DNA from: a virus
Length of the DNA: 64,000 nucleotides
IMG/VR virus record: IMGVR_UViG_3300032224_001591
Location: 1-64,000 of that record
Strand: one strand, 5' to 3'
Positions 39,734-64,000 of this stretch are shown one piece after another (position 1 is the stretch's first letter; each line of letters starts with the position of its first letter). The position numbers and the translations under genes are program-made. The notes under the pieces were generated by a model, which was not told where the DNA came from, did no database searches, and saw nothing but the letters and a program-made list of their open reading frames with translations.

Positions 39734-40381
39734 ATGACTCGAATTTATCTTGTTGAAAAATGTTATGGTGATCCTAATAAAGTTTATATTGGAAAAACTA
39801 AAAATAGTAGAATCCAACCTCATAAAGCTAAATATGGAAAAAATATAATATATACTATTATTGATCAAATTAATAGTTTAAACCATAAAGAATGGAAACC
39901 ATTAGAATCATATTGGATAGAACAGTTTAGACAATGGGGGTTTGAATTAATGAATATTAATAAAAATGGGGGACAAGGGCCTGGGGTTTATTCTGAAGAG
40001 TCTAAAAATAAAATGAGAAAAAAACGAAAACTTGGAACTGGTAAAAAAATAAGTAAAAAATTAAAAGAAAATAATCATTCCCAATATTACACAGATGAAG
40101 TTAGATTAAAAATAAGTAAAGGTAATAAAGGTTTATCTAAACCATTTACTAAAGAACATCAACAAAATATATTATTAGCTAAACGTAAACAAGCAAAACC
40201 GGTATTGATGTTTGATTTAGAAGATAATTTAATTAAAGAATGGGAAAGTAAAGGACAAGCAGCGGAGTGGGTAAAAGAACAAACAGGTAAAACAAGCAAT
40301 TTGGTTTCTCAAATAAAAGATTGTATATTGGGAAGACAAAAAACAGCTTTTGGATATAAATGGAAATATAAAATAATATGA
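39734..40381 (+). CDS. GIY-YIG homing endonuclease with NUMOD motifs
   Basis: 215 residues. The GIY-YIG domain (1-90) begins RIYLVEKCYG followed by KVYIGKTKNSR, with an ESYWIEQFR Glu. NUMOD3-like repeats (SEESKNKMRKKRK, TDEVRLKISKGNKGLSKPFT, KEHQQNILLAKRK) bind DNA, and a NUMOD1-type module is at the C-terminus (KPVLMFDLEDNLIKEWESKG, then TAFGYKWKYK). This is the normal architecture of freestanding homing nucleases. No intron is seen in the flanking genes. The 3' end overlaps the FAD gene by 4 nt; the nuclease may have inserted here. Confidence 0.85.
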   Translation: MTRIYLVEKCYGDPNKVYIGKTKNSRIQPHKAKYGKNIIYTIIDQINSLNHKEWKPLESYWIEQFRQWGFELMNINKNGGQGPGVYSEESKNKMRKKRKLGTGKKISKKLKENNHSQYYTDEVRLKISKGNKGLSKPFTKEHQQNILLAKRKQAKPVLMFDLEDNLIKEWESKGQAAEWVKEQTGKTSNLVSQIKDCILGRQKTAFGYKWKYKII

Positions 40382-41676
40382 AACATACTAAAAAAATTGT
40401 AATCGTAGGAAGTGGTGTAGCAGGTATCAATGCTGCAACTAAATTAGTGGATAATGGATATCCGGGTGAACTAATAACAATAATTGATAAAGGAAGTGAT
40501 CCTCACAATCGCTTACCTAGTGAAGTAATGTGTGGTTTTGCAGGAGCAGGAGCATGGAGTGATGGTAAATTAACTTATCACACATCAATTGGTGGTCAAT
40601 TATCAAAATATTGTGGTGAAGAAAAAGCAATGGAATTAATGAAACAAGTAGTAGATAACTTTACTCGTTTCCATCCAAAACCAGAAGAAATCTTTATGTC
40701 TGATCCACAGGAAGAACCTGAATTTATTAAACCATACTTTGGTTTGAGAATGTTTCCAGTATGGCATATTGGATCTAATTTCCTTCACGAGATTGCTAAA
40801 ACATGGTATCAATATTTGTTAGATAAAGGAGTTAAATTTATATGGAATACTGAAGTAACACATATTGATTTTGAATCTCAGAGTATTTTTACACATCATA
40901 AATTTCCCACATTTGATTATGATCAACTTATATTTGGTGTAGGTAAATCAGGTATTGACTTTGCTCAAAAACTATCTGATGACTATGAATTACCAACTGA
41001 ACCTAAATCAGTACAAATTGGAGTTCGATTTGAAGCACCACAAAAATATTTCCAAAAATTAATTGATATATCTTATGATTTTAAATTGTATCAAAAATTT
41101 GATAATGTTAGTTTACGTTCATTTTGTACTAACAATAACGCTGCATATGTTGCTGTTGAAGAAACTTATGGTGATGTTACATACAATGGTCACGCGAAAA
41201 AAGGTGAAGAATTTAGAAACAATATGACCAACTTTGGTATATTAATGGAAATTAAAGGTATCGAAGATCCATTTAAATGGAGTAGAGATGTAGTACAAAA
41301 ATTACAATTAAATAATACTGGATTATATTATTCACCTAATAATACTCGTACACCAGCATTAACATCTGAAGGTACTACAGTATCATCAGTTCAAATTTCA
41401 AATTTAGATACATTTAAAGAATCAATAGGTGTGTATGCTGATTATATTATTAACTTTATTGATGATATGAATAAAATATTTGATTTTGGTGATGATTGGG
41501 GTATGTATATTCCTGAAGTAAAATATCTTTCACCTGAACCATTAGTTAATTACGATAATTTATCTTTAACTGAATATCCAAATGTTCACTTTGTAGGTGA
41601 TGCTTTAAGTGCTAGAGGAATTACAGTATCAGGAGCGCACGGAATTTACGTTGCCGAATATTTATCGCAAAAATAG
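40378..41676 (+). CDS. FAD-dependent oxidoreductase (COG2509-like)
   Basis: 432 residues. A Rossmann FAD-binding start KKIVIVGSGVAGINAA has GxGxxG at 11-16. A conserved block CGFAGAGAWSDGKLT (52-66) is characteristic of the uncharacterised COG2509 FAD dehydrogenases. The C-terminal VHFVGDALSARGITVSGAHG closes the FAD site. Such proteins act on unknown substrates in bacteria. As a phage-borne gene it is unusual and could be a host-derived metabolic gene. It is part of a unit with the homing endonuclease upstream. Confidence 0.75.
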   Translation: MKHTKKIVIVGSGVAGINAATKLVDNGYPGELITIIDKGSDPHNRLPSEVMCGFAGAGAWSDGKLTYHTSIGGQLSKYCGEEKAMELMKQVVDNFTRFHPKPEEIFMSDPQEEPEFIKPYFGLRMFPVWHIGSNFLHEIAKTWYQYLLDKGVKFIWNTEVTHIDFESQSIFTHHKFPTFDYDQLIFGVGKSGIDFAQKLSDDYELPTEPKSVQIGVRFEAPQKYFQKLIDISYDFKLYQKFDNVSLRSFCTNNNAAYVAVEETYGDVTYNGHAKKGEEFRNNMTNFGILMEIKGIEDPFKWSRDVVQKLQLNNTGLYYSPNNTRTPALTSEGTTVSSVQISNLDTFKESIGVYADYIINFIDDMNKIFDFGDDWGMYIPEVKYLSPEPLVNYDNLSLTEYPNVHFVGDALSARGITVSGAHGIYVAEYLSQK

Positions 41677-44701: not shown

Positions 44702-46597
44702 ATGGCTGATACAAGTATTTTTACCAGATTGCAGAGACTGTTTTCAACAGATGTAATCATTCGTAATGATGGCGGAGATCAACTGAAAGTAATGGATACT
44801 AACACTATTCAACAATCAGGAGAATTTGCTACAAACGCACTAGTAGATAGATTTAACCGAATTTATTCGATTAATGCTACCTCAATGTATGGTGCTCAAT
44901 TTAACTTAAATTATCGTTATTTAAGAACCCAAATCTACTCAGACTACGATATCATGGATACAGATGCTATTATTGCTTCTGCCTTGGATATTCTGTCCGA
45001 AGAATCGACTCTTAAAAATGACATGGGTGAAGTACTTCAAATTAGAAGTAATAACGAAGATATTCAAAAATCATTATATAATTTATTCTATGATGTAATT
45101 AATATTGAATTTAATTTAAGTTGGTGGATTAGACAACTATGCAAATATGGTGATTTTTTCTTAAAATTAGATATTTCTGAAAAATTTGGTGTTTATAATG
45201 TTATTCCAATAACACCATATCATATTGAAAGAGAAGAAGGATATGATAAAGACAATCCATTCTCAGTTAAATTTAAATATTCCCCTCAAGGATTTTATTC
45301 TGGCACTTCAGGTTATTATAGTGTAGCAGGAACGGATCCTAAAGATACACCAGGTATCTATTTTGATAATTATGAAATGGCACATTTCCGTTTATTATCA
45401 GATTTTAACTATTTACCTTATGGTAGATCTTATATTGAACCAGCTCGCCGTTTGTATAAACAATATGCGTTGATGGAAGATGCAATGTTGATCCATCGTA
45501 TTGTTCGTTCCCCAGACAAACGTATTTTCTATTTAAATGTTGGTTCTATACCTCCCAATGAAGTAGAAAACTTCATGCAAAAAACTATTTCTACAATGAA
45601 ACGTACTCCGTTCATTGATCAAGAAACGGGACAATATAATTTAAAATATAACGTACAAAATCTATTAGAGGATTATTTTATACCTGTTCGTAATGGTGAC
45701 CAAGTAACTAAAATTGATACTTTACCTGGTTTACAATATACAGCTATTGAGGATGTTACTTACTTAAGAGATAAACTATTTGCTGCTTTAAAAGTACCTA
45801 AAGCATTTATGGGTTATGAAAAAGACTTAACTGGTAAAGCAACACTAGCAGCTGAAGACATCAGATTTGCTCGTACAATTGATAAAATTCAACGTATTGT
45901 ATTATCCGAATTATATAAAATAGCATTAGTACATTTATATACCCAAGGTTATACCTCAGAACAATTAACTAATTTTGAATTAAACTTAACTACACCTTCA
46001 ATCATATACGATCAAGAAAAGATTGCATTATTGACACAAAAAGTAGAATTAGCTCAAAAGATAATGGAATCTAAATTATTACCTACAGATTGGATTTACG
46101 ATAACATATTCCATTTATCACAAGACCAATACGATGAATATCGTGATATGACTGTTGAGGATGCTAAACGTGATTTCCGTATAAAACAAATTACTGATGA
46201 AGGTAATGATCCTAAAGTAACAGGTAAATCTTATGGTACACCTCATGATTTAGCTTTAGCATATGGTAAAGGCAGAATGGGAAGTAATCCTGAAAACGTA
46301 CCTGATGGATACGATAGTGATTTAAAATTAGGTCGTCCTGAAGAAACAGGAACTGATCGTAACCATCAAGATAATGCGTTTGGTAAAGATAGATTAGGCA
46401 CAGTAGCTATGAAAAAAGATGACCAAGAAAAATACGGTAATCCAAATTATAAAGGTGGTTCACCACTAGCTCTTGAAACAGCTCAAGCCGTTTACGCAAA
46501 AAATAAAACATTAATTGAGAGTTTAGGTAAAGCTCCGTTGTTTACCAAAGAAATAGACAATACTACGCTTCTAAACGAAGATCAATTAAAGGGGTAA
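44702..46597 (+). CDS. Portal protein (gp20-like)
   Basis: 631 residues, a little longer than T4 gp20 (524). Typical gp20 segments are visible: LRTQIYSDYDIMDTDAIIAS (N-terminal wing), DFFLKLDISEKFG, then FNYLPYGRSYIEPARRLYKQ, then MLIHRIVRSPDKRIFYLNVG, and DRNHQDNAFGKDRLGT near the C-terminus. The dodecameric portal nucleates the prohead and is the DNA channel. It is placed between terminase and head-assembly genes as in T4. The last 120 residues are a Gly/Asp/Lys-rich extension. Confidence 0.9.
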   Translation: MADTSIFTRLQRLFSTDVIIRNDGGDQLKVMDTNTIQQSGEFATNALVDRFNRIYSINATSMYGAQFNLNYRYLRTQIYSDYDIMDTDAIIASALDILSEESTLKNDMGEVLQIRSNNEDIQKSLYNLFYDVINIEFNLSWWIRQLCKYGDFFLKLDISEKFGVYNVIPITPYHIEREEGYDKDNPFSVKFKYSPQGFYSGTSGYYSVAGTDPKDTPGIYFDNYEMAHFRLLSDFNYLPYGRSYIEPARRLYKQYALMEDAMLIHRIVRSPDKRIFYLNVGSIPPNEVENFMQKTISTMKRTPFIDQETGQYNLKYNVQNLLEDYFIPVRNGDQVTKIDTLPGLQYTAIEDVTYLRDKLFAALKVPKAFMGYEKDLTGKATLAAEDIRFARTIDKIQRIVLSELYKIALVHLYTQGYTSEQLTNFELNLTTPSIIYDQEKIALLTQKVELAQKIMESKLLPTDWIYDNIFHLSQDQYDEYRDMTVEDAKRDFRIKQITDEGNDPKVTGKSYGTPHDLALAYGKGRMGSNPENVPDGYDSDLKLGRPEETGTDRNHQDNAFGKDRLGTVAMKKDDQEKYGNPNYKGGSPLALETAQAVYAKNKTLIESLGKAPLFTKEIDNTTLLNEDQLKG

Positions 46598-46630: not shown

Positions 46631-47491
46631 ATGAATATTAAACATTCTAAATATAAGAATACGGGTATACTTTTTGAATTATTAGTTAGACAGATCACAG
46701 CGGATACTTTATCCGGTAAAGAATCAAAAGCTACCCCTATTCTTAAAAAATTCTTTGTTAAAACGGAGTTAGGCAAAGAATATAAACTATATGAAACTAT
46801 TTTAAGTAAAAAGCATTTATCGGAAGGTAAAGCTGAGATAGTTATCAACACTATAATCGAATCATCTAAGTCATTAAATAAAGGATCTTTAAAAAGACAA
46901 AAATACAATCTTATTAAAGAAATATCTAAACATTACAATGTTGATGAATTCTTTAAAACTAAATTACCTAACTATAAGGCACAAGCAGCTTTATATACAT
47001 TGTTAGAAATTTATAATAGTGATAATTTATCTAACCCAGACCAAATAATTGCAAATAAAATATCTTTACTTGAAACATTAACCAATAAACAAGTTGATGA
47101 AAAACAAGTTAAAGATCAATTATTAGAAGAATTTAAAACATACGATCAAGATTTACGTATTTTAACTTACCGTGTATTATTAGAAAAATTTAATGGTAAA
47201 TACTCTAGTTTAAACAAAAATCAAAAAATGGTTCTTAAAGAGTTTATCAATTCAATTGATTCTACTCCTAAATTAAGATCATTTTACAATACTAAAATTA
47301 ACGAAATTAAATCATCATTACTTAGTCTAAACAATAAAGTAGCTGATAAAGCAGTTAAAATCAAAATCAACGAAGTATCGAATTTCTTAGTTGAATTAGG
47401 AAAAACAGCAAATGTGGGTAATGATGATTTAGTTAATTTGTTACAATATTATGAATTATTAGAAGAACTTACTAATATACATGGCAAGTAA
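46631..47491 (+). CDS. Conserved-type head-operon protein, unassigned
   Basis: 286 residues, entirely helical and charged. The start MNIKHSKYKNTGILFELLVR followed by QITADTL is a pattern I recall from T4-like phages of marine bacteria, located between portal and protease genes. No enzyme motif. An internal core or portal-associated protein is the likely role by position. The 3' end overlaps the next gene by 11 nt. Confidence 0.6.
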   Translation: MNIKHSKYKNTGILFELLVRQITADTLSGKESKATPILKKFFVKTELGKEYKLYETILSKKHLSEGKAEIVINTIIESSKSLNKGSLKRQKYNLIKEISKHYNVDEFFKTKLPNYKAQAALYTLLEIYNSDNLSNPDQIIANKISLLETLTNKQVDEKQVKDQLLEEFKTYDQDLRILTYRVLLEKFNGKYSSLNKNQKMVLKEFINSIDSTPKLRSFYNTKINEIKSSLLSLNNKVADKAVKIKINEVSNFLVELGKTANVGNDDLVNLLQYYELLEELTNIHGK

Positions 47492-48113
47492 TAAACAATT
47501 AGCAGATAAATTAGCTAAAAAACTTAAAGAAGTAAGTGCAACGGGTACAGGCGCAAGTTTTACTCCGGGTAGTGGCGAACAAGTTGCTACTCCTTTTGCC
47601 TTTAACTCAAATAAAAAAGCTAATGGATCTCAAGGCGCTAAATATTCATACAAATTAGGATATAAATTAGCACCTAAACAACCTATGGAAGAAACTAATC
47701 CAGGAGCATCACTAGGTAAAGGACCATCAGCTGGAAAAACAGGTGTAAAAAATAGCTATTACACTAAATTAGGATTTAAAAATGTTAATCCAAAAGAATT
47801 AGCTAAAAATGCTAAATGGGTTGATACAAAATATTTATGGAAGGAAGATCAAACATTATCTGAAGATACTAATGTTGAAGAATATATTAATACATTAGGT
47901 ATTGATAGTCCTGAATTAAAAAAATTTATCTCTAGTCGTATTTTAGGATTCGATAAAGTAGAAGATAAATTAAACGAATTACTTCCATTGTTACAAAAAG
48001 CAAAGCAAAAAACAATGGATGAATATAAACAAAATCCAAGTTTTAATGTGTTGTATGGTACAGACCTAGCAGCGGATTATTTGGATGATTTAATTGAAAT
48101 GTTTAAAAACTAA
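47481..48113 (+). CDS. Head protein sharing the major capsid N-terminal arm
   Basis: 210 residues. Residues 14-33, KLKE|VSATGTGASFTPGSGE, closely match the major capsid segment LVSE|VSSTGTGAFFTPGQGE (56-75 there), including a Glu at the predicted cut. The rest has a Tyr/Lys-rich region (KYSYKLGYKLAPK), another SYYTKLGFK repeat and a C-terminal helical domain. It could be a minor capsid, vertex or inner-surface protein using the same docking arm. It overlaps the preceding gene by 11 nt. Confidence 0.6.
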   Translation: MASNKQLADKLAKKLKEVSATGTGASFTPGSGEQVATPFAFNSNKKANGSQGAKYSYKLGYKLAPKQPMEETNPGASLGKGPSAGKTGVKNSYYTKLGFKNVNPKELAKNAKWVDTKYLWKEDQTLSEDTNVEEYINTLGIDSPELKKFISSRILGFDKVEDKLNELLPLLQKAKQKTMDEYKQNPSFNVLYGTDLAADYLDDLIEMFKN

Positions 48114-48118
48114 ATAAA

Positions 48119-48385
48119 ATGGCAAACATACCAGTAAATGCAACCGCAATAACAAAATTCCAAGGACAATCTGTAACAGGATCTTTTGCAGGATTTGTTG
48201 TGTGCCCTAACACATCAACTTCTCCTCAAGGAACAGTAGCTCATTTCCATGGTTTAAAAGATGGAAATGGAAACGAATTAGTAGTATCCGCTTCTTCTTT
48301 ATATTTTTTACCAGGATATTATCCAATATTTGTAACTAGTGCTTCTTTAGATGCTACAAGTAACAATGTAATATTTTTTACTTAA
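48119..48385 (+). CDS. Small beta-rich head protein
   Basis: 88 residues with Ser/Thr/Val-rich beta strands and a central AHFHGLKDGNGNELVV turn. The pattern suggests an Ig-like or barrel fold, as in head decoration proteins. It lies in the prohead operon. The role is inferred from position only. Confidence 0.55.
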   Translation: MANIPVNATAITKFQGQSVTGSFAGFVVCPNTSTSPQGTVAHFHGLKDGNGNELVVSASSLYFLPGYYPIFVTSASLDATSNNVIFFT

Positions 48386-48399
48386 AAAAACAATATACA

Positions 48400-48987
48400 A
48401 TGGCAACATTACAAGACCAATATAATCAAATTCAAGAAGGTAAAGGTGATAAAAACCACTTCTTAAAACAAGCACGTCATTTATTTCCTGATTACGTTAA
48501 TCACTATAATAATTTTGACGAAACTGTTAAAATTTTAAAAGGTAAAAGTATTTTATCTGAACATAGAGGTGGTTTAGGTATGGTATCTACAAACGGTAAA
48601 CGTGTTGAAGATTGGATTACTATATTTCAAGAAGCAGTTAAAGCAACAGAAACAAAAGTATCTAAAGAAGTATTAGATACTCAAGCTCATAATTGGGATA
48701 CTAAAGATATGAAAGAAATTGACAATTTATATGGTCAAGCTTTTTTAAATGGATTTTATGATGAGATGAAAGATCCTAAAAATCAAGATAAAACAGTAGA
48801 TCAAGTAAAACAACTTGTAGCTAAAAATTTAGGTAAAGATATATTATATTATACTACTAAAGCTCAATTCGGTGTTAAAGGTATTGGATATCAAACAGAA
48901 GCACCAGGTTTAGGTACTCCTAAAGAACCAAAAGGAAAATATAAAGCAAGTGGATACGGTGATTTACCTAAAAATAAAAAAGACTAA
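48400..48987 (+). CDS. Hypothetical head-assembly protein
   Basis: 195 residues, helical and charged, with a Gly/Lys-rich C-terminal 35 residues. The N-terminal DQYNQIQE|GKGDKNHFLKQA contains a leader-like IQE site (10-12 of a 12-residue leader), and HRGGLGMVS (around 55) is a basic turn. It overlaps the protease gene by one base, so its product probably belongs to the prohead core. No known family recognised. Confidence 0.55.
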   Translation: MATLQDQYNQIQEGKGDKNHFLKQARHLFPDYVNHYNNFDETVKILKGKSILSEHRGGLGMVSTNGKRVEDWITIFQEAVKATETKVSKEVLDTQAHNWDTKDMKEIDNLYGQAFLNGFYDEMKDPKNQDKTVDQVKQLVAKNLGKDILYYTTKAQFGVKGIGYQTEAPGLGTPKEPKGKYKASGYGDLPKNKKD

Positions 48988-49589
48988 TGAAACAAGTATT
49001 AATCGAAACCATACCATTTAGCGTTTCACCAATACAATTACATGAAGGTGTTAAAGCACCATCAGGTAATCCTTTGGTTGAAGGTATTTTAGCTACAGCT
49101 GAAGTAAAAAACGGTAATGGTAGATATTATTCTAAAGATTTATGGGAACGCGAAATAGACAAATATATGTCTAGCGTTAAAGAAAACAGAGCAACAGGCG
49201 AATTAGACCACCCAGATTCAACTATTATTTCCCTTAAAAATGTATCTCATATTATTAGAGATATTTGGTGGAATGGAGATAAAGTAATGGGTAAAATAGA
49301 AATCTTACCAACTGTATCAGGTAATATCTTAAAAGCACTTATTGACAATAATGTAATGGTAGGTGTATCATCTCGTGGTATGGGTAGTTTAAAACAAATA
49401 GGCGAAACCATGGAAGTACAAGATGATTTTGAATTACTATGTTGGGATTTCGTTTCAACACCTTCTAATCCAGGTTCATATATGAATGTTATTAAAGAAG
49501 GAAAAGAATTTAAACCATACCCATACAATAAAGTAAATAGTTTATTAACAGAAATTTTATGTGCTAATGGCACTTGTCCAATAATATAG
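48987..49589 (+). CDS. Prohead core protease (gp21-like)
   Basis: 200 residues, the size of T4 gp21 (212). The fold signature is present: EGILATAEVKNGNGRYYSK, then GELDHPDSTIISLKNVSHII with the catalytic-type His 75, and VMVGVSSRGMGS with the nucleophilic Ser (128 or 129). gp21 proteases cut scaffold, capsid and internal proteins after Glu in hydrophobic-x-Glu sites during head maturation. This makes it the expected processor of the leaders described for the cargo block. Strong terminator downstream. Confidence 0.9.
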   Translation: MKQVLIETIPFSVSPIQLHEGVKAPSGNPLVEGILATAEVKNGNGRYYSKDLWEREIDKYMSSVKENRATGELDHPDSTIISLKNVSHIIRDIWWNGDKVMGKIEILPTVSGNILKALIDNNVMVGVSSRGMGSLKQIGETMEVQDDFELLCWDFVSTPSNPGSYMNVIKEGKEFKPYPYNKVNSLLTEILCANGTCPII

Positions 49590-49624
49590 GCAATACCCCC
49601 TCCTTCGATAGTATCGTAGGACCA

Positions 49625-49657
49625 ATCCTAGCCCCGTAAGGCTAGGATTTTTTTTTT
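49625..49657 (+). terminator. Rho-independent terminator
   Basis: ATCCTAGCC (49625-49633) pairs with GGCTAGGAT (49640-49648), followed by T9 (T10 with the last stem base). Confidence 0.85.
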
Positions 49658-49702
49658 AATCCTGTTGCGTTTTGAAGAATCCTAATATATGTATATTGGA
49701 AT

Positions 49703-49794
49703 ATGCGATTATCTATATCGCATTTATTTAATCAATTCTATTACGCTTCCACATCTAATAAGCGTACTTCCAAAACAAAAATTTGAGGAAAATT
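49703..49794 (+). promoter_or_regulatory. Structured leader of the scaffold gene with a Shine-Dalgarno
   Basis: Two inverted repeats: ATGCGAT/ATCGCAT (49703-49709, 49717-49723) and TACGCTT/AAGCGTA (49742-49748, 49760-49766). GAGGA at 49785-49789 lies 5 nt before the ATG at 49795, a rare Shine-Dalgarno in this genome. No class B box is visible here, so the promoter may be of another kind. Confidence 0.45.
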
Positions 49795-50925
49795 ATGGCA
49801 AACAGAGACATTCTGAAAGAAGCTATTGCTGACGCTAAATCAATTAAAGAAGCAGCAATCGCAAACGCAAAAGTCGCTCTAGAAGAAGCCTTTACTCCGT
49901 ATCTAAAAGAAAAATTATCAGCTAAATTAGCTGAAATTGACGCTATGGACGAAGAAATGGATGAATCAAAAGAGATGGACGAAGCTGAAATTGACGAGTA
50001 TGGTGATGAACACCCAATGTCGACAAAAGACGCTTTAAAAGAAAAATCTATGGACGAAGAAATGGATGAAACCATGGACGAAGAAATGGACGAAATGAAA
50101 AAATCTATGGACGAAATGGACTTAGATGAGTTATTAAGAGAATTAGAAGACATGGAAGAAAACATGGACGAAGTAATCAACGATCCTAAAGGTCCAGGTG
50201 CTCACGGTAACGTTGCTCCTCCAGGACAATCTGACACTGACTTAAACGAAGCTAAAGAAGGCGACGAAGAAGAAGACGTTGAAATCGACATCGAAAACAT
50301 GTCTGAAGAAGATCTTAAATCATTTATTGAAGGCGTTATCGCTGACATGGTTGCGGCTGGCGAATTAGAAGCTGGTCACGAAGGTATGGAAGACGAAGAA
50401 GGCGCTGAAGATGAAGAAAGTGAAGAAGAAGTTTCATTAGACGAACTTATGGACGAAATGGAAGAAGGCTCAGGCTACGATGAAATGGCTAAAAATCAAG
50501 CAATGAAAAACTCTCATTACGAAAAAATGAAAGAAGAAATGGACGAAATGAAGAAAGAACTTGAAGAAGCTTATGAGGCTTTAAATAAAGTTAAATCTGA
50601 AATTAACGAAGTTAATCTTTTAAATTCTAAACTTCTTTACTTAAACAAAGTGTTTAAAGCTAAAAACTTAACTGAATCACAAAAAGTTAAAGTATTAGCT
50701 GCTTTTGACAAAGCAACAAGTAAAAAAGAAGCAAAATTAGTTTACGAAACAGTAATGGAAAGTTTAAACAACACAAACACTACAAAACGTCCAGTAACTG
50801 AATCCGTAAGAGGTATGGCTTCTAAAGTTATAAGCGGTACTACTAATAATAGTACAAAACAACCAATTATTGAAGTTAATGCTGCTTTCGAAAGAATGCA
50901 AAAATTAGCTGGAATTAAAAAGTAA
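49795..50925 (+). CDS. Scaffold / prohead core protein (gp22-like)
   Basis: 376 residues from ATG 49795 (TTG at 49783 rejected). N-terminus MANRDILKE|A with a cargo-type site (6-9). The middle is a low-complexity acidic region of repeated MDE[EM]MDE units (50-130), then coiled coil (about 230-275). Sites DLNE|A (about 150) and others are visible. The C-terminus FERMQKLAGIKK matches the targeting element of the cargo proteins at 28192 and 30861. gp22 forms the temporary core and is degraded by gp21. The acidic, helical composition is standard for phage scaffolds. Confidence 0.9.
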   Translation: MANRDILKEAIADAKSIKEAAIANAKVALEEAFTPYLKEKLSAKLAEIDAMDEEMDESKEMDEAEIDEYGDEHPMSTKDALKEKSMDEEMDETMDEEMDEMKKSMDEMDLDELLRELEDMEENMDEVINDPKGPGAHGNVAPPGQSDTDLNEAKEGDEEEDVEIDIENMSEEDLKSFIEGVIADMVAAGELEAGHEGMEDEEGAEDEESEEEVSLDELMDEMEEGSGYDEMAKNQAMKNSHYEKMKEEMDEMKKELEEAYEALNKVKSEINEVNLLNSKLLYLNKVFKAKNLTESQKVKVLAAFDKATSKKEAKLVYETVMESLNNTNTTKRPVTESVRGMASKVISGTTNNSTKQPIIEVNAAFERMQKLAGIKK

Positions 50926-50961
50926 ATTTAAACAATTAAAAAACAACTAAAAACTAAAACG

Positions 50962-52689
50962 ATGAGTCAAATTCAATCATTATTAGAATCTGCTAACCCA
51001 TACAAATCGTTACAAAGCGATGCAGCTAAATTAGCTAGCAAATGGGCAAAAACAGGCCTTTTAGAAGGCTTAGACGAGACAAACAGAAATAACATGTCTC
51101 TTATGCTTGAAAATCAAGCAAAACAATTAGTAAGCGAGGTATCATCTACTGGTACAGGTGCTTTCTTTACTCCAGGACAAGGTGAACAATGGGCTGGTAT
51201 CGCTTTACCGTTAGTACGTAAAGTGTTCGGTCAAATCGCATCTAAAGAATTCGTAAGCGTTCAACCGATGAACTTACCTTCTGGTCTTGTGTTCTTCTTA
51301 GATTTCCAATATGGAACTGGAAAGAATCCATTCGCAGTTAACAGTTCAGTTTATGGTACTACTGGTTCTCAGTATCCATTTGCTACTCCATCTGCATCTG
51401 GTGGTCTTTATGGCGCTGGTCGTTTCACGTATTCTACCAACCAATTTAGTGCTTCTGTTAATTTAACAGGTTCGGTTTCAGGTTCAGCATTACCTGCTAA
51501 CGTTGCAGCTAGTACAGCTACAGTAGTTACAGCTTCTTGGTCTAACTTGAACTTTGATTCTGATTACTCTGCTTCAGTTGCAGCAAATCAAATCTATGCA
51601 GTTACTGTTCCAACAGCTTCTACTGCTTTATCTGCATTTGACCAAGACGCAGTTCGTGGTTTTACTACTTACTACTCTGTAGGTACAGGCGTTACTGGTG
51701 CTACATTTGGTACAGGTTCAATTTTACCTGCATTTACCACTTATAACTACACTGCTAACACAATCACTTTCTACTACACTGCTTCTACAGCAATTACTGC
51801 AGCTAACCTTTCTGGTTCAATGACTATCTTCTATAATAAACAAACTGACGATAACCGTCGTGGTGATTTTGAAGATTCTACAGCAACTACGTTCTCTATT
51901 CCGAATGCGCAAAGTACTAGTACTATCGTAATTCCTGAGATCAACATCAGTATGCAATCACAAGAAATTACAGCTAAAACTAAAAAATTAAAAGCTGTAT
52001 GGACTCCTGAGTTTGCACAAGATTTGAATGCTTACCAAAATATCGATGCTGAAGCTGAATTAACTAACATGTTAAGCGAGTATATCTCTATGGAGATTGA
52101 TCTTGAAATCTTAGATATGTTGATTGAAGACGCTGCAGCTGGTACTGAATACTGGTCAGCAATCAATAACAACGTTTATAACGGTTCAACAGGTGCTTTC
52201 TCAACTGGTGGTTCTGCTTTCTATAACACTCAAGGACAATGGTTCCAAACTTTAGGAACAAAAATCCAAAAATTAAGCAATAAAATTCACCAATTAACTT
52301 TAAGAGGTGGTGCTAATTTCATGGTAATTTCTCCTACAGTAGCAACTATCATCGAATCTATCCCTGGATTTGCTTCTAACAACAATGGCGAAGCTGATCA
52401 AATGGAATACGCTTTCGGTGTACAAAAAGTTGGTTCATTCAATGGTCGTTACAAAGTTTACAAAAACCCTTACATGACTGAAAACACTATCTTATTAGGA
52501 TACCGTGGTACTCAGTTCTTGGAAGCAGGTGCTGTATTCGCTCCGTACATTCCGTTGATCATGACTCCATTAGTGTACGATCCAAATACCTTCACTCCAC
52601 GTAAAGGTCTATTAACTCGTTACGCTAAGAAAATGTTACGTCCTGAATTCTACGCTAAGATCTATGTTAATGGTTTAAATACCCTTTAA
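50962..52689 (+). CDS. Major capsid protein (gp23-like)
   Basis: 575 residues (T4 gp23 is 521). It begins with a leader-type MSQIQSLLE|S and has the predicted maturation site LVSE|V (56-59), near where T4 gp23 is cut (E65). The gp23 block VQPMNLPSGLVFFLDFQYG follows at about 100. The HK97-fold body continues to a late KMLRPEFYAKIYVNGLNTL. A Ser/Thr-rich insertion (about 170-280) may be a surface-exposed domain. It is followed by a strong terminator, so it is highly expressed, probably alone or with the scaffold. Confidence 0.95.
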   Translation: MSQIQSLLESANPYKSLQSDAAKLASKWAKTGLLEGLDETNRNNMSLMLENQAKQLVSEVSSTGTGAFFTPGQGEQWAGIALPLVRKVFGQIASKEFVSVQPMNLPSGLVFFLDFQYGTGKNPFAVNSSVYGTTGSQYPFATPSASGGLYGAGRFTYSTNQFSASVNLTGSVSGSALPANVAASTATVVTASWSNLNFDSDYSASVAANQIYAVTVPTASTALSAFDQDAVRGFTTYYSVGTGVTGATFGTGSILPAFTTYNYTANTITFYYTASTAITAANLSGSMTIFYNKQTDDNRRGDFEDSTATTFSIPNAQSTSTIVIPEINISMQSQEITAKTKKLKAVWTPEFAQDLNAYQNIDAEAELTNMLSEYISMEIDLEILDMLIEDAAAGTEYWSAINNNVYNGSTGAFSTGGSAFYNTQGQWFQTLGTKIQKLSNKIHQLTLRGGANFMVISPTVATIIESIPGFASNNNGEADQMEYAFGVQKVGSFNGRYKVYKNPYMTENTILLGYRGTQFLEAGAVFAPYIPLIMTPLVYDPNTFTPRKGLLTRYAKKMLRPEFYAKIYVNGLNTL

Positions 52690-56587: not shown

Positions 56588-59329
56588 ATGGCTAGAGTTA
56601 GATTTTTAGACCAAGTCCCTGTTGGAGTATATGCGGTTGATGGAGCAACAGGTAGCGGTTCTGCCGGATTACCAGGTTCTTCAGGAACATCAGGCTCAAG
56701 TGGTTTAGCAGGAACTAGTGGTAGTTCAGGTCTTTCAGGTACTTCTGGTTCTTCAGGTTTATCAGGTACAGCAGGAACAACAGGAACATCAGGTTCAACT
56801 GGTACTTCAGGAAGTAGCGGAATAAACGGAACATCAGGCTCTTCAGGATTAAGTGGAACATCAGGTAGTTCAGGTTTAAGTGGTACAAGTGGTACTTCAG
56901 GATCTTCAGGTTCAACTGGTACTTCAGGTTCATCAGGAACTAGTGGTTCTTCAGGATTAAGCGGAACATCAGGTTCAAGCGGTTTAGCAGGAACTAGTGG
57001 TAGTTCAGGAATAACTCAAAATACAGGTTCATTATTAGTTACCGCATCTGCTGCAGGTAACGTAATTACTTTTACTAAAGGAGATACTTCAACATTTAAT
57101 GTTACTGTAGATACAGGTTCTACAGGTATTTTTGTCCAATCAGGATCTTCAAATGTATATTTTACTACTTCTTCTTTAAAAATTACAGGAAGTACACTAC
57201 AAACAGCTGGAGCTCCTCCTATAACAACTGTTGCTACTCAATCAGCAGGTAATAATTATGCTCTTGTAGTAAGTCAATCAGGATGGTTTTATAATGTTAA
57301 TGCCGGAGTACCAACATCAAATGCTTGGGGTACAAATTTATCTGGTTCTTATTTTAATAACTTTACAAGTAATACGGATGTTTCTGAAATTTTAAGATTT
57401 GTAGCGGGATTATTAAGTGCTTCAGCACCCGATGCTTCTCCAAATACAAGAACTTATAGTACTACTCTTACTGAGAATCAATTAAATAATGGAACAACTG
57501 CTTCCCCTTCTGGTTTTGTACCTCAATCAGCTACAAACTCAGATGTTACTTATTTAACAGTTAAAGGATTTGCACCTACCGGTTCAGCTTTATTTTCAGG
57601 TAAAACTATATATAGTAACTCAGCATTTTCAGCAAATTATTCAAGTATAGCTGCTGGTTCTACTCTAGTATCATCATCAGCAAACGCTCAATTATTTGGG
57701 TTAGGCCCTTTAACAAGTGGAGGTCCAACACAATTTAACGTTTCAGGAACAATTAACTGGTTCTATTCAGATAACAATAATGAAACTAGTACAGCTACTT
57801 CACAGTCTGAAAATATATTATCTCAATCATCTTTTGCAACAACAAATGGTTTAACATTAGCTAAAATTAATACAGCTAACCCATCTGTAATACCTGCAGC
57901 TTATCAAGATGGTTTATTTACTAACATTTATACTTCAAGTTTATATAATGGTGGCAGATCATTTACTAGTGTAAGTTCTTCAGGCTGGTATCATATTAGT
58001 TCTTCTATAAAGATATCTTCAGGAAGTTCAGCATACAGTACTCCTGCTACGGATAAATTAAGAATATTCTTTTCTCCAATAGGTAGTTTAACAATTCCAA
58101 ATAATACTTTAGCTTTAGGATATGCGGGTAATGCTCCAACAACAGCTACTTCACGTTCATTATCCGGAGCTCCTTATTTATTAACAGCTACTTGGGATAT
58201 TTCATCTTCAGTAACAGGATTATTTAGTCCTTTATATTATACTTCATCAACAATAGCCGATTTTAATAAATCAGATACTTTAATAACATTAGCAGGAACA
58301 ACAGCGGCTTCAACAGCTACGGGTACTGTTCAAACATCAAATGCTATTTATGATTCAACAGGTACAACTGCTAGAACAATTGGTACTATACCGTTTGAAA
58401 CAGATATAGTAAAACTTACCGGTTCATCAACATTTAATGCTGGTGCGGCTGGAGCTACTAATATTACTGTTAACTCAATATCACCAACAACATATTCTTT
58501 ATTAACAAGAGGTATAAATAAAAATGGTACTCAATCTACTGTAACTACTCAAACAATATCTTATTTTACCTCTGGTACTTTTTCACAACCTGTAGGTTCG
58601 GGTTCAATGGCTTATTATGGTAGAGCTCAAGGATATGATGGTGGTTCATTAACAGGTACTACAGAACAATTTAGTGGAGAAACATACAGACTTCAAATAA
58701 CAGGTTCTTTATTATCAGGATCATATGCTAATGGTACTAAATTTGTTACTGGCTCATATTCAGTTTATACTTTAGGTGCTTTAGACTTACAAGTAAAACC
58801 AGGATATTTAGTAAAACCATCAGGTTCTACAGCTAATGGATATTGGTTAGCAAACCCAAGTGAAGCTCAAACATACAAATATTATGCTAGAGCATTCCAA
58901 ACTAATGGAACTGTTTACAGTGCAATGACTATAAATGTAGGACAAACATTAACTCCATGGACTGGTTCAGCTAATAATGCTGTTTCTGTTTTAGTTATGT
59001 TTTCTTCTTCTGTAGCGGGTACTGCTATTCCTAGTGGTGGTGGTGCTACATTACCTAGAGCGGTTTTATTTGATCCAAGTGCATTGTCTAATTTATCAAT
59101 AGCAACCAATCAAGCACAAGATAATTTTTTAAATCCTTTTTCTTCATCAATTGATATAAAAGGAAATAACCAAGGAGGTTCAGGTCTTGTGGGAACTACA
59201 TATACTATTCCTCTTACTGATACTCTTAATCAATTATTAACATCTGTTTATAAAGATTTAATAGTTATGGTACGATATAATGGCCAACCAGCCACTCCAG
59301 TTTCAACAATAACCGTAGGATTTAGTTAA
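56588..59329 (+). CDS. Collagen-like fibre protein with C-terminal beta domains
   Basis: 913 residues. After a short N-terminal segment (MARVRFLDQVPVGVYAVDGA) comes a Gly-x-y tract at about 19-141 (GSSGTSGSSGLAGTSGSSGL style), then a large Ser/Thr/Ala/Asn-rich beta region to the end. Collagen-like tracts in phage form trimeric rods. Here they probably space the N-terminal attachment module from the C-terminal part, which may bind a host receptor. The Gly-x-y tract has almost no Pro or Lys and no interruption. It is followed after 11 nt by a second, larger collagen-like gene. Confidence 0.75.
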   Translation: MARVRFLDQVPVGVYAVDGATGSGSAGLPGSSGTSGSSGLAGTSGSSGLSGTSGSSGLSGTAGTTGTSGSTGTSGSSGINGTSGSSGLSGTSGSSGLSGTSGTSGSSGSTGTSGSSGTSGSSGLSGTSGSSGLAGTSGSSGITQNTGSLLVTASAAGNVITFTKGDTSTFNVTVDTGSTGIFVQSGSSNVYFTTSSLKITGSTLQTAGAPPITTVATQSAGNNYALVVSQSGWFYNVNAGVPTSNAWGTNLSGSYFNNFTSNTDVSEILRFVAGLLSASAPDASPNTRTYSTTLTENQLNNGTTASPSGFVPQSATNSDVTYLTVKGFAPTGSALFSGKTIYSNSAFSANYSSIAAGSTLVSSSANAQLFGLGPLTSGGPTQFNVSGTINWFYSDNNNETSTATSQSENILSQSSFATTNGLTLAKINTANPSVIPAAYQDGLFTNIYTSSLYNGGRSFTSVSSSGWYHISSSIKISSGSSAYSTPATDKLRIFFSPIGSLTIPNNTLALGYAGNAPTTATSRSLSGAPYLLTATWDISSSVTGLFSPLYYTSSTIADFNKSDTLITLAGTTAASTATGTVQTSNAIYDSTGTTARTIGTIPFETDIVKLTGSSTFNAGAAGATNITVNSISPTTYSLLTRGINKNGTQSTVTTQTISYFTSGTFSQPVGSGSMAYYGRAQGYDGGSLTGTTEQFSGETYRLQITGSLLSGSYANGTKFVTGSYSVYTLGALDLQVKPGYLVKPSGSTANGYWLANPSEAQTYKYYARAFQTNGTVYSAMTINVGQTLTPWTGSANNAVSVLVMFSSSVAGTAIPSGGGATLPRAVLFDPSALSNLSIATNQAQDNFLNPFSSSIDIKGNNQGGSGLVGTTYTIPLTDTLNQLLTSVYKDLIVMVRYNGQPATPVSTITVGFS
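56642..57010 (+). repeat. Gly-x-y coding repeat in the first fibre gene
   Basis: About 123 codons of uninterrupted Gly-x-y with x and y mostly Ser, Thr, Ala and Leu. DNA units such as GGTTCTTCAGGA recur with synonymous changes, so the repeats are not identical at DNA level. Confidence 0.8.
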
Positions 59330-62300: not shown

Positions 62301-64000
62301 AACTTCAGGTTCTGCTGGTACAACAGGTTCTTCGGGTGATGCTGGAAATAGTGGAATTAGCGGCACAAATGGTACATCAGGTTCATCAGGAACTTCAGGT
62401 TCAACTGGAGCTAGTGGTAATGCGGGTGCTTCAGGAGCTAGTGCATCTTCAGGATCAACCGGTTCAAATGGTAGCTCAGGAGCTGCTGGTTCAAGTGGTT
62501 TATCCTCTTTATCCGGTACTTCAGGTTCAACTGGTACTAATGGTTCTTCAGGTATTGCTGGTTTAAGTGGTGCAAGTGAAACTAGTGGTACTGCTGGTAC
62601 TTCAGGTTCAACGGGTTCAAATGGTATAGCTGGACAAAGTGGTTTAAGCGCTACTTCAGGAACATCCGGTTCAACAGGTACAAATGGTTCTACAGGTAAT
62701 GCTGGAACTTCAGGAAATAGCAATACAGCAGGTAGTTCAGGAACTTCAGGTTCTTCAGGTTCTACAGGTTCAGCAGGTGTTGCTGGACAAAGCGGTTTAA
62801 GTGCAACTTCAGGATCTTCAGGTTCAACAGGTACAAGTGGTTCTACAGGTAATGCTGGTAGTGGTGGATTTAGCAATACATCAGGTTCATCAGGTTCATC
62901 AGGTACAAGTGGTGAAACCGGTACAAGTGGTACTTCAACATATGCAGCTTCTGGAACTTCAGGTTCTGGAGGTTCATCAGGTACAAGTGGTGAATTAGGT
63001 TCAAATGGAACTTCAAATATATCAAGTACTTCAGGATCTTCAGGATCAAGCGGTACAACAGGTTCAGCAGGTGCAAATGGTCAAAGTGGTGCGAGTGCAT
63101 CTTCAGGCTCTTCAGGTTCAACTGGTTCAAATGGTAGTTCAGGAAACGCAGGTACATCAGGAAATAGCTTTACAAGTGGAACTTCAGGTTCTACAGGATC
63201 TAATGGTTCGGCAGGTATAGCAGGTTTAAGTGCTAATTCTTCAACAAGTGGAACTTCAGGTTCTAGTGGTACAAGCGGTTCAGCCGGAAATGCGGGTCAA
63301 AGTAATTCATCTTCAACTTCAGGTTCTTCTGGTTCTTCTGGTTCTTCAGGATCTGCAGGTTTAGCAGGTGCAAGTGCTGCTTCCGCAACTAGCGGAACTT
63401 CAGGTTCTAGTGGTTCTACAGGTTCAAATGGAGCTAGTGGTCAAAGTGGTTTATCAGGTACTTCAGGTTCATCAGGTTCAACTGGATCAAATGGTTCAAC
63501 TGGTGTGGCTGGTACTAGTGGTAATAGTGAAACTTCAGGAACTTCAGGTTCATCAGGTTCTACCGGTTCAGCAGGTGCGGCAGGTATAAGTGGTTTAAGC
63601 TCAACAGCCGGAACATCAGGTTCATCAGGTTCAAATGGTTCTACTGGTGTCTCAGGCACTAGTGGAAATAGTAATACAGCAGGTACTTCTGGCTCTGCTG
63701 GTACAAATGGTTCTACAGGAGATGCAGGATTAAGTGGCGCTTCCGCTACTAGTGGTACATCAGGTACAACGGGGTCTACTGGTTCAAACGGAGTAGCAGG
63801 TCAAAGTGGTTTATCATTTACTGCAGGTTCATCAGGCTCAGGAGGTTCAAACGGATCTTCAGGTGTTGCTGGTACCTCAGGTACATCTTCAGCAACTAAT
63901 TCAGGAACTTCAGGTTCAAGTGGTTCAAATGGCTCTTCAGGAAACACAGGTTCAAATGGTTTAAGTGCATTAAGCGGAACTTCAGGATCAACAGGTTCAA
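59341..64000 (+). CDS. Giant collagen-like fibre protein (partial, runs off the window)
   Basis: More than 1,553 residues from ATG 59341; the frame is open to the last base. Residues 1-256 are a non-repetitive domain (MAFDKNIKSSRLLQSKRYTE, then a beta-rich SNDYTFDYKQGVLEF-like segment; about 195-250 with GSAQITGSLGVTGSVNFKTL). From about 258 on the protein is a collagen-like tract of more than 1,290 residues with a 24-residue super-repeat. The C-terminal tip is beyond the window. A long thin fibre on the tail or head is inferred. The late promoter at 56552 probably serves both fibre genes. Confidence 0.8.
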   Translation, partial: MAFDKNIKSSRLLQSKRYTEATFDSQEAYTSVLDINATEIYTQQNLIPSSSIPYSGSSQNNLYITISGSNILQYLYRLPLTPGPASGSVYPVWFAISSSNTASVSNQVIQANQLTSFISNKYAVPTLGPYDAESASPNTAYNVVLTTGATSGSATVVSVNDYTFDYKQGVLEFIQNEPSTSSKLYLTAYRYVGQTLDQSLTSGSGGSGFPFTGSAQITGSLGVTGSVNFKTLPAQDIVTIVTYNTASGQLGYVNVTSGTSGFAGSSGTAGISGTSGTTGSSGSSGSNGASGSSGVAGTSGTTGSSGSSGVAGQSGLSATSGTAGSTGSNGSSGAAGSSGLSALSGTSGSTGSNGSSGAAGQSGLSATSGSSGSTGSNGSSGVAGSSGLSALSGTSGSTGSNGSSGAAGASGLSATSGTSGSTGSTGSNGAAGQSGLSATSGSSGSTGSNGSTGVAGTSGNSNTAGTSGSTGSTGSSGNAGQSGLSATSGTSGSTGSNGSAGVAGLSSTSGSSGSSGSSGSSGVAGQSGLSATSGSSGSTGSSGSSGAAGSSGLSVLSGTSGSTGSNGSSGADGQSGLSATSGTAGSSGSTGSNGAAGQSGLSATSGSSGSSGSSGSSGVAGSSGASALSGTSGSTGSNGSSGTDGASGLSATSGTSGSTGSNGSAGVAGQSATSGSSGSSGSSGSSGVAGQSGLSATSGSSGSTGSSGSSGVAGSSGLSATSGTSGSTGSNGSSGLAGNSGASATSGTSGSTGSTGSNGAAGQSGLSATSGTSGSSGSNGSTGVAGTSGNSQTSGSSGSSGSNGSSGNAGASGLSNTSGSSGSSGSNGSSGVAGSSGLSALSGTSGSTGTNGSSGDAGSNGLSALSGTSGSTGSNGSSGAAGSNGLSTLSGTSGSTGSNGSSGAAGQSGLSATSGTAGSAGSTGSNGAAGQSGLSSTSGSSGTSGSNGSTGNAGTSGNSNTAGTSGSTGSTGSSGIAGQSGLSATSGTSGSAGTTGSSGDAGNSGISGTNGTSGSSGTSGSTGASGNAGASGASASSGSTGSNGSSGAAGSSGLSSLSGTSGSTGTNGSSGIAGLSGASETSGTAGTSGSTGSNGIAGQSGLSATSGTSGSTGTNGSTGNAGTSGNSNTAGSSGTSGSSGSTGSAGVAGQSGLSATSGSSGSTGTSGSTGNAGSGGFSNTSGSSGSSGTSGETGTSGTSTYAASGTSGSGGSSGTSGELGSNGTSNISSTSGSSGSSGTTGSAGANGQSGASASSGSSGSTGSNGSSGNAGTSGNSFTSGTSGSTGSNGSAGIAGLSANSSTSGTSGSSGTSGSAGNAGQSNSSSTSGSSGSSGSSGSAGLAGASAASATSGTSGSSGSTGSNGASGQSGLSGTSGSSGSTGSNGSTGVAGTSGNSETSGTSGSSGSTGSAGAAGISGLSSTAGTSGSSGSNGSTGVSGTSGNSNTAGTSGSAGTNGSTGDAGLSGASATSGTSGTTGSTGSNGVAGQSGLSFTAGSSGSGGSNGSSGVAGTSGTSSATNSGTSGSSGSNGSSGNTGSNGLSALSGTSGSTGS
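60112..64000 (+). repeat. Giant Gly-x-y tract with 72-bp period
   Basis: A typical unit codes GQS-GLS-ATS-GTA-GST-GSN-GSS-GAA: eight triplets of which the third starts with Ala instead of Gly. The phase is kept for many consecutive units, with variants such as ALS and GNSNTAGTS. Codons GGT, TCA, AGT, ACT vary synonymously between units. It continues past the window end. Confidence 0.85.

Follow-up and report, generated by a model that had tools for sequence, protein, structure and literature searches.

A 210-residue head-cluster protein of a T4-like phage carries a copy of the capsid-protein arm that changes in step with it, suggesting common sockets in the shell

The window, a stretch of 64,000 nucleotides from the 147-kb record of a T4-like phage, encodes within its head cluster a protein of 210 residues (p210) that carries, directly behind a predicted protease site, a close copy of the arm found behind the equivalent site of the major capsid protein (MCP). 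Across a large group of T4-like phages, this copy, of about the first 17 residues of the predicted mature MCP, changes in step with the MCP, which suggests common sockets in the viral shell, into which the p210 arm would plug in the same way as that of the MCP.

The MCP is a gp23-type protein of 575 residues (50962..52689, + strand; Pfam Gp23 PF07068, E 9.6e-74) and the record's only Gp23-family gene; a gp24-type paralogue was rejected, as no second gene of this family was found. Residues 56–59, LVSE (51127..51138, +), form its predicted protease site, with E59 invariant in relatives, and are followed by the arm, residues 60–76, VSSTGTGAFFTPGQGEQ (51139..51189, +). The gap-free alignment of the original prediction, with glutamate at the predicted cut of both proteins, proved exact: KLKE|VSATGTGASFTPGSGEQ (p210 residues 14–34) pairs with LVSE|VSSTGTGAFFTPGQGEQ (MCP residues 56–76), giving 14 identities over 20 residues and 15 over 21 if the next glutamine is included. 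The 20-residue match scored 72 with BLOSUM62 (z=8), whereas shuffled versions of these residues averaged -9 (sd 10) and reached 45 at most. Among the 74,744 20-mers from the ORFs of the whole record, no further non-self match of this kind was present, the next-best place for the MCP arm after p210 scored 32, and a DNA pattern for the arm had these two occurrences in the genome and none other. No arm match was found in the acidic scaffold-like protein at the gp22 position (49783..50925, +; assigned from position and composition), the arm was absent from the other head proteins of the record, and a search for a third carrier in the loci described below returned none that was convincing.

Within the MCP, the arm lies between L-x-E and a WAG(I/V)AL helix and is hypervariable among phages. 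A profile of MCP relatives aligned the end of the arm region to T4 gp23* chains, which places the arm within T4 residues 66–91, the segment defined as the N-fist (PMC7136217, PMC9958956). The p210 segment directly behind the predicted cut matches the MCP counterpart of the N-fist, the feature by which a carrier of a mature N-fist was recognised. When the T4 head expands, the N-fist shifts to the outer surface; in the five portal-facing gp23 D subunits it is disordered (PMC9958956, PMC7136217). An AlphaFold model of the MCP had a pLDDT of 56, too poor to locate the pocket.

The p210 gene (47481..48113, +), whose ATG overlaps the 3' end of an upstream gene for a 286-residue protein, encodes what appears to be a three-part precursor, as judged from the ORF list, a 61-member family alignment and its position. 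The N-terminal pro-segment, residues 1–17, MASNKQLADKLAKKLKE (47481..47531, +), is predicted by AlphaFold to form a helix at residues 3–18 and ends in an L-x-E site, so that p210 presents L/I-x-E at P3–P1, the signature of a gp21-type prohead protease substrate. Cleavage at E17 is predicted from this T4 rule; as the predicted P1 glutamate, E17 is the sole invariant column of the alignment (61/61), with P3 mostly leucine or isoleucine. The arm copy follows as residues 18–34, VSATGTGASFTPGSGEQ (47532..47582, +), delimited by the match, the co-variation and the boundary profile. It would form the start of the middle segment once the first cut was made; this segment, residues 18–128 (47532..47864, +), is basic, with a family median net charge of +5, and mostly disordered, with low pLDDT at residues 16–77 and the arm itself predicted to be disordered. 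A second predicted prohead-protease site, LSE|D at residues 126–128 (47856..47864, +), leads into a C-terminal helical domain, residues 129–210 (47865..48110, +), with pLDDT of about 90 and acidic across the family. Profile annotation of p210 gave 0 matches in Pfam and PHROGs, and its model, confident only in the C-terminal helices, gave no significant fold match in the PDB. With no Gp23 match and with predicted helices and disorder, p210 was not classed as having an HK97-type capsid domain.

Searches by tblastn with p210 and with a consensus of its core segment found nothing in 50,697 phage records, and relatives were therefore taken from metagenomic viral contigs and by synteny. The contigs supplied 16 direct relatives, and MCP searches extended the set to some 300 head-cluster loci. 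Portal, protease and MCP were all present in 68 loci of the first round. A p210 homologue was detected in 66 of them, each time between the portal and protease genes, and a divergent one occupies this position in the remaining two, Flavobacterium phage immuto and Microcystis phage Mel-JY01. Immuto is the nearest isolate, and its homologue, immuto26A_199, has a short arm. The part ahead of the first cut varies from 10 to 138 residues, and homologues in L027, L053, L059 and other loci have an N-terminal domain of 110–140 residues (containing FRTHLRKYYPDQY) ahead of the cut; the arm is thus kept while the part that cleavage would remove varies widely. At the junction of middle segment and C-domain, [LI]xE occurs in 48 of 53 fused members, compared with a background of 35% for 26-mers from other parts of these proteins, and in the fused forms the C-domain boundary falls at the predicted position of the second cut. 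Most family members that lack the C-domain end near this junction, and in unfused phages the next gene downstream usually encodes the domain by itself (39 such loci in the larger set). In loci such as L072 (4856-5126) and L075 (5140-5410), the free-standing C-domain gene begins with MYKYKL. The motif enrichment and the splitting of the gene at the same point indicate that the second site is probably a real processing site, with the modules acting as separate pieces.

A set of 152 non-redundant related genomes was divided by the length of the p210 arm, and 86 have the long arm. When all + strand ORFs of each locus were compared with the MCP arm, p210 matched it best in 84 of these 86. The p210 arm is short in about 40% of the sampled relatives, and in some of these (L098, L101, L280, L286 and L324) the MCP arm is long all the same, so that the extended mimicry is not needed everywhere. 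Disappearance of the match in related phages had been named at the outset as what would count against the idea: within the clade the match persists, whereas it is lost in these short-arm relatives, and outside the clade no arm copy was seen in the head clusters of T4, cyanophage S-RIM12 and pelagiphage HTVC008M. A search of a library of open-access papers found no description of such an arm copy, although one elsewhere is possible, and turned up neither proteomic nor structural data for the clade.

Co-variation of the pair in related genomes, which the original prediction had put forward as a check, was found. In a first set of 63 genomes, p210 and MCP arms of the same genome scored 55 on average, compared with 36 for mispaired arms (0 of 5000 permutations), and in the 86 long-arm genomes the values were 57 and 38; almost all of these data come from uncultured contigs, with arms located by pattern and the few loci that had been misparsed discarded manually. 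Pairs from single genomes illustrate the likeness: GGGTAGASFSPGTGEQ / GGGVAGASFNPGTGEQ in L016, IASNSYYTSGGQGEN / IASNSGFTSGGEGEN in L040, GGAGFSAGAGETWA / GGSGFTAGAGETYA in L143 and SLSGGGVAGGSF / SLSGGGVAGGTF in L312. The excess of identity in own over mispaired pairs falls almost wholly between P1' and about P18' (W/Y-Ala), and own and mispaired pairs were equal downstream of the arm and, bar the shared P1 glutamate, upstream of it. The matched segment therefore starts at the predicted mature N-terminus.

Partial Mantel correlations between p210 and MCP arms, with MCP-body, protease and p210 C-terminal distances removed, were 0.39–0.42; the correlation with the p210 C-terminus was 0.26, which indicates some background in this test, and several of the co-variation tests are correlated with one another. 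Because related genomes are not independent, a tree-independent pair statistic was also computed, namely own-own minus crossed scores, with an expectation of zero if the arms had changed independently after the split. Path-disjoint pairs were drawn from a tree built from MCP body and protease, with the pairing order fixed by traversal and not optimised. They gave p=0.007 for the first 63 genomes and, for the long arms of the 152, 20 positive, 9 negative and 11 zero pairs (Wilcoxon p=0.0008; sign test p=0.03); the short-arm pairs, which served as a control, were 10 positive and 8 negative, with no effect (p=0.28).

Since both arms are compositionally biased, their likeness might reflect chance or the composition of Gly/Ser/Thr-rich linkers; shuffling residues inside the arms, however, reduced the own-versus-other difference from 19.3 to 1.7, a loss of more than 90%, which, with the z-score in the window, refutes this explanation and leaves it scarcely any likelihood. 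A segment recopied between the genes by gene conversion or recombination, without selection on the protein, would likewise produce similarity within a genome, and there are individual genomes, L016 for one, in which 13 of 15 codons are shared between the arms. Over 1006 identical residue pairs, by comparison, the codon was shared in 482, as against 483.6±15.4 expected from codon usage, and in the window the two arms use different synonymous codons at many positions, one of them an AGT/TCA serine. The codon test rejects gene conversion as a general cause, which we regard as highly improbable, and codon sharing at chance level indicates that the similarity is held by protein-level selection and not by DNA copying. 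The composition control and the codon test thus both back the co-variation. An old duplication followed by shared descent, with the arms alike since little has changed, would fit the presence of E|x[SN]xTG in both proteins even in more distant relatives. We consider it very unlikely, given that the MCP arm is hypervariable, that both arms tend to shift in the same direction after lineages split, and that parsimony places about 13 switches between long and short arm on the tree.

The co-variation points to a partner shared by the two arms without naming which, and the simplest account would be that both mature N-termini meet the same surface. The match lies in the part that cleavage would leave in place, and it varies with the MCP but not the protease; the pocket is therefore likely to belong to the MCP lattice. 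We propose that p210 serves as a precursor in head assembly and that the gp21-type prohead protease probably cuts it at two points, after Glu17 and after about Glu128. The first cut would bare a copy of the mature MCP arm, equivalent to the N-fist, as a new N-terminus. Selection would then keep the copy matched since it docks into the class of pocket that receives MCP N-fists between neighbouring capsomers. The likeliest sites of use would be pockets without an MCP donor, by the portal or the pentons; those pockets should lack such a donor, and p210 may therefore fill them, with the basic middle segment acting there as a plug or as a tether toward packaged DNA. We give about even chances to this reading as a whole, namely a p210 that is cut twice and uses its copy of the MCP N-fist to dock in N-fist pockets, most likely those of the portal and pentons. 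That such a cleavage-exposed mimic, co-evolving with the MCP, fills lattice-empty portal or penton pockets as a symmetry-mismatch plug that T4 lacks is possible but doubtful. For the earlier claim that both proteins expose the same arm and could hence occupy an equivalent site, the arm match behind the cut and the co-variation speak in favour, whereas cleavage, presence in the virion, binding to the shell and the vertex location are what we infer. The correspondence of the arm to the T4 N-fist, the second predicted processing site and the occurrence of the C-domain as a gene of its own go beyond that claim.

Two other functional readings were weighed against docking in a common pocket. In the first, a protease exosite, a scaffold or a chaperone reads the arms of both precursors during assembly, with no role in the mature shell. 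Both arms do lie directly behind the protease site, and both proteins belong to the head cluster. Protease divergence, on the other hand, hardly followed the MCP arm (partial Mantel r 0.07) and did not follow the p210 arm (-0.06) when MCP body and p210 C-terminus were controlled, the arm is absent at the second p210 cut site and from other head proteins, and the copy lies in the part that would remain after cleavage. Moreover, T4 gp21 needs little beyond L/I-x-E (PMC9026906), so that cleavage alone would require no match of 17 residues. We judge this reading rather unlikely. Somewhat less probable still is like-with-like pairing, with the two arms lying side by side and bound to each other, in the prohead or after expansion, so that matching sequences would be selected with no common pocket. 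Homotypic strand pairing would also yield position-matched co-variation, and both arms are Gly/Ser/Thr-rich, that of p210 being predicted disordered; however, the T4 N-fist contacts four neighbouring subunits (PMC9958956), and the present results gave no sign of arm-arm pairing.

Docking of the p210 arm in N-fist pockets may be set beside several known systems. The N-fist of T4 gp23 and its counterpart, the MCP arm that is copied in p210, lie directly behind the protease cut and before the conserved helix and the VQPMN motif; p210 lacks the capsid fold and carries the arm only. The vertex protein gp24 of T4 is another head protein that is cleaved and resembles the MCP in its N-terminal part. 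There the resemblance stems from paralogy, gp24 being a full paralogue of gp23; p210 lacks the capsid domain, and no gp24-type gene is present in the record. T4 gp67 and gp68 resemble p210 in being small, in lying between the gp20 portal and the gp21 protease and in having predicted gp21-type cut sites, but they share no segment with gp23 and are degraded during maturation; since they occupy the same gene position, the p210 product may not survive into the virion either. No sequence relation of p210 to gp67 or gp68 was found on comparison by eye, p210 having no profile match. The T4 internal proteins IPI–III have, like p210, a short N-terminal helix ending in L/I-x-E, presumably removed, and a basic remainder, and p210 thus appears to have the N-terminal peptide and cut signature of internal proteins with a capsid-targeting signal (CTS). 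In IPI–III, this signal resides in the removed peptide, while p210 is fixed in position within the head cluster; to our knowledge, their mature N-terminus is not a copy of an MCP. In the unrelated adenovirus, proteins VI and VII compete for one hexon pocket, which parallels the proposal for p210 and the MCP in that two protease-processed virion proteins share one capsid binding site; the competing parts there are propeptides, whereas here the mature N-terminus of the MCP is itself copied.

How T4-type heads seal the mismatch between the 12-fold portal, the pentons and the hexameric lattice is poorly known, as is the role of the small proteins between gp20 and gp21. A second carrier of a lattice-locking arm, in register with the MCP, would make both questions addressable in one head structure, and an arm match behind L/I-x-E offers a sequence rule for finding such partners in uncultured phages.

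The head-cluster genes of the window start in the order terminase (43106), portal (44702), 286-residue protein (46631), p210 (47481), 88-residue protein (48119), 195-residue protein (48400), prohead protease (48987), scaffold-like protein (49783) and MCP (50962). The portal is of gp20 type (44702..46597, +; Pfam PF07230, E 3e-68), and the gp21-type protease, a Peptidase_S77 (48987..49589, +; Pfam E 4.8e-29), is presumed to cut both p210 and the MCP. The 286-residue protein (46631-47491) begins with MNIKHSKYKNTGILFELLVRQI and had no family match; relatives were present in 204 fetched loci, adjoining the portal where checked. Between p210 and the protease, the 88-residue protein (48119-48385) is a possible small structural or decoration protein, with similar-looking short proteins at about this position in Mel-JY01, L191 and HTVC008M. 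The 195-residue protein (48400-48987) has an N-terminal domain, YNxIQEGKxxKxHFxxxAR...LKxKxxIxE, also seen in immuto, which ends at a possible L-S-E site, LSE|HRGG; it is perhaps another processed core protein. Upstream of the terminase, a 432-residue protein (40378-41676) has the look of an FAD/NAD(P)-dependent oxidoreductase, an unusual cargo near the head region, and is preceded by a 215-residue protein (39734-40381) resembling a GIY-YIG homing endonuclease. Further downstream, a 913-residue protein (56588-59329) has long, collagen-like GSSGTSGSSG repeats near its N-terminus, and a similar TSG-repeat protein of >1600 residues starts near position 64,000 of the record (L102).
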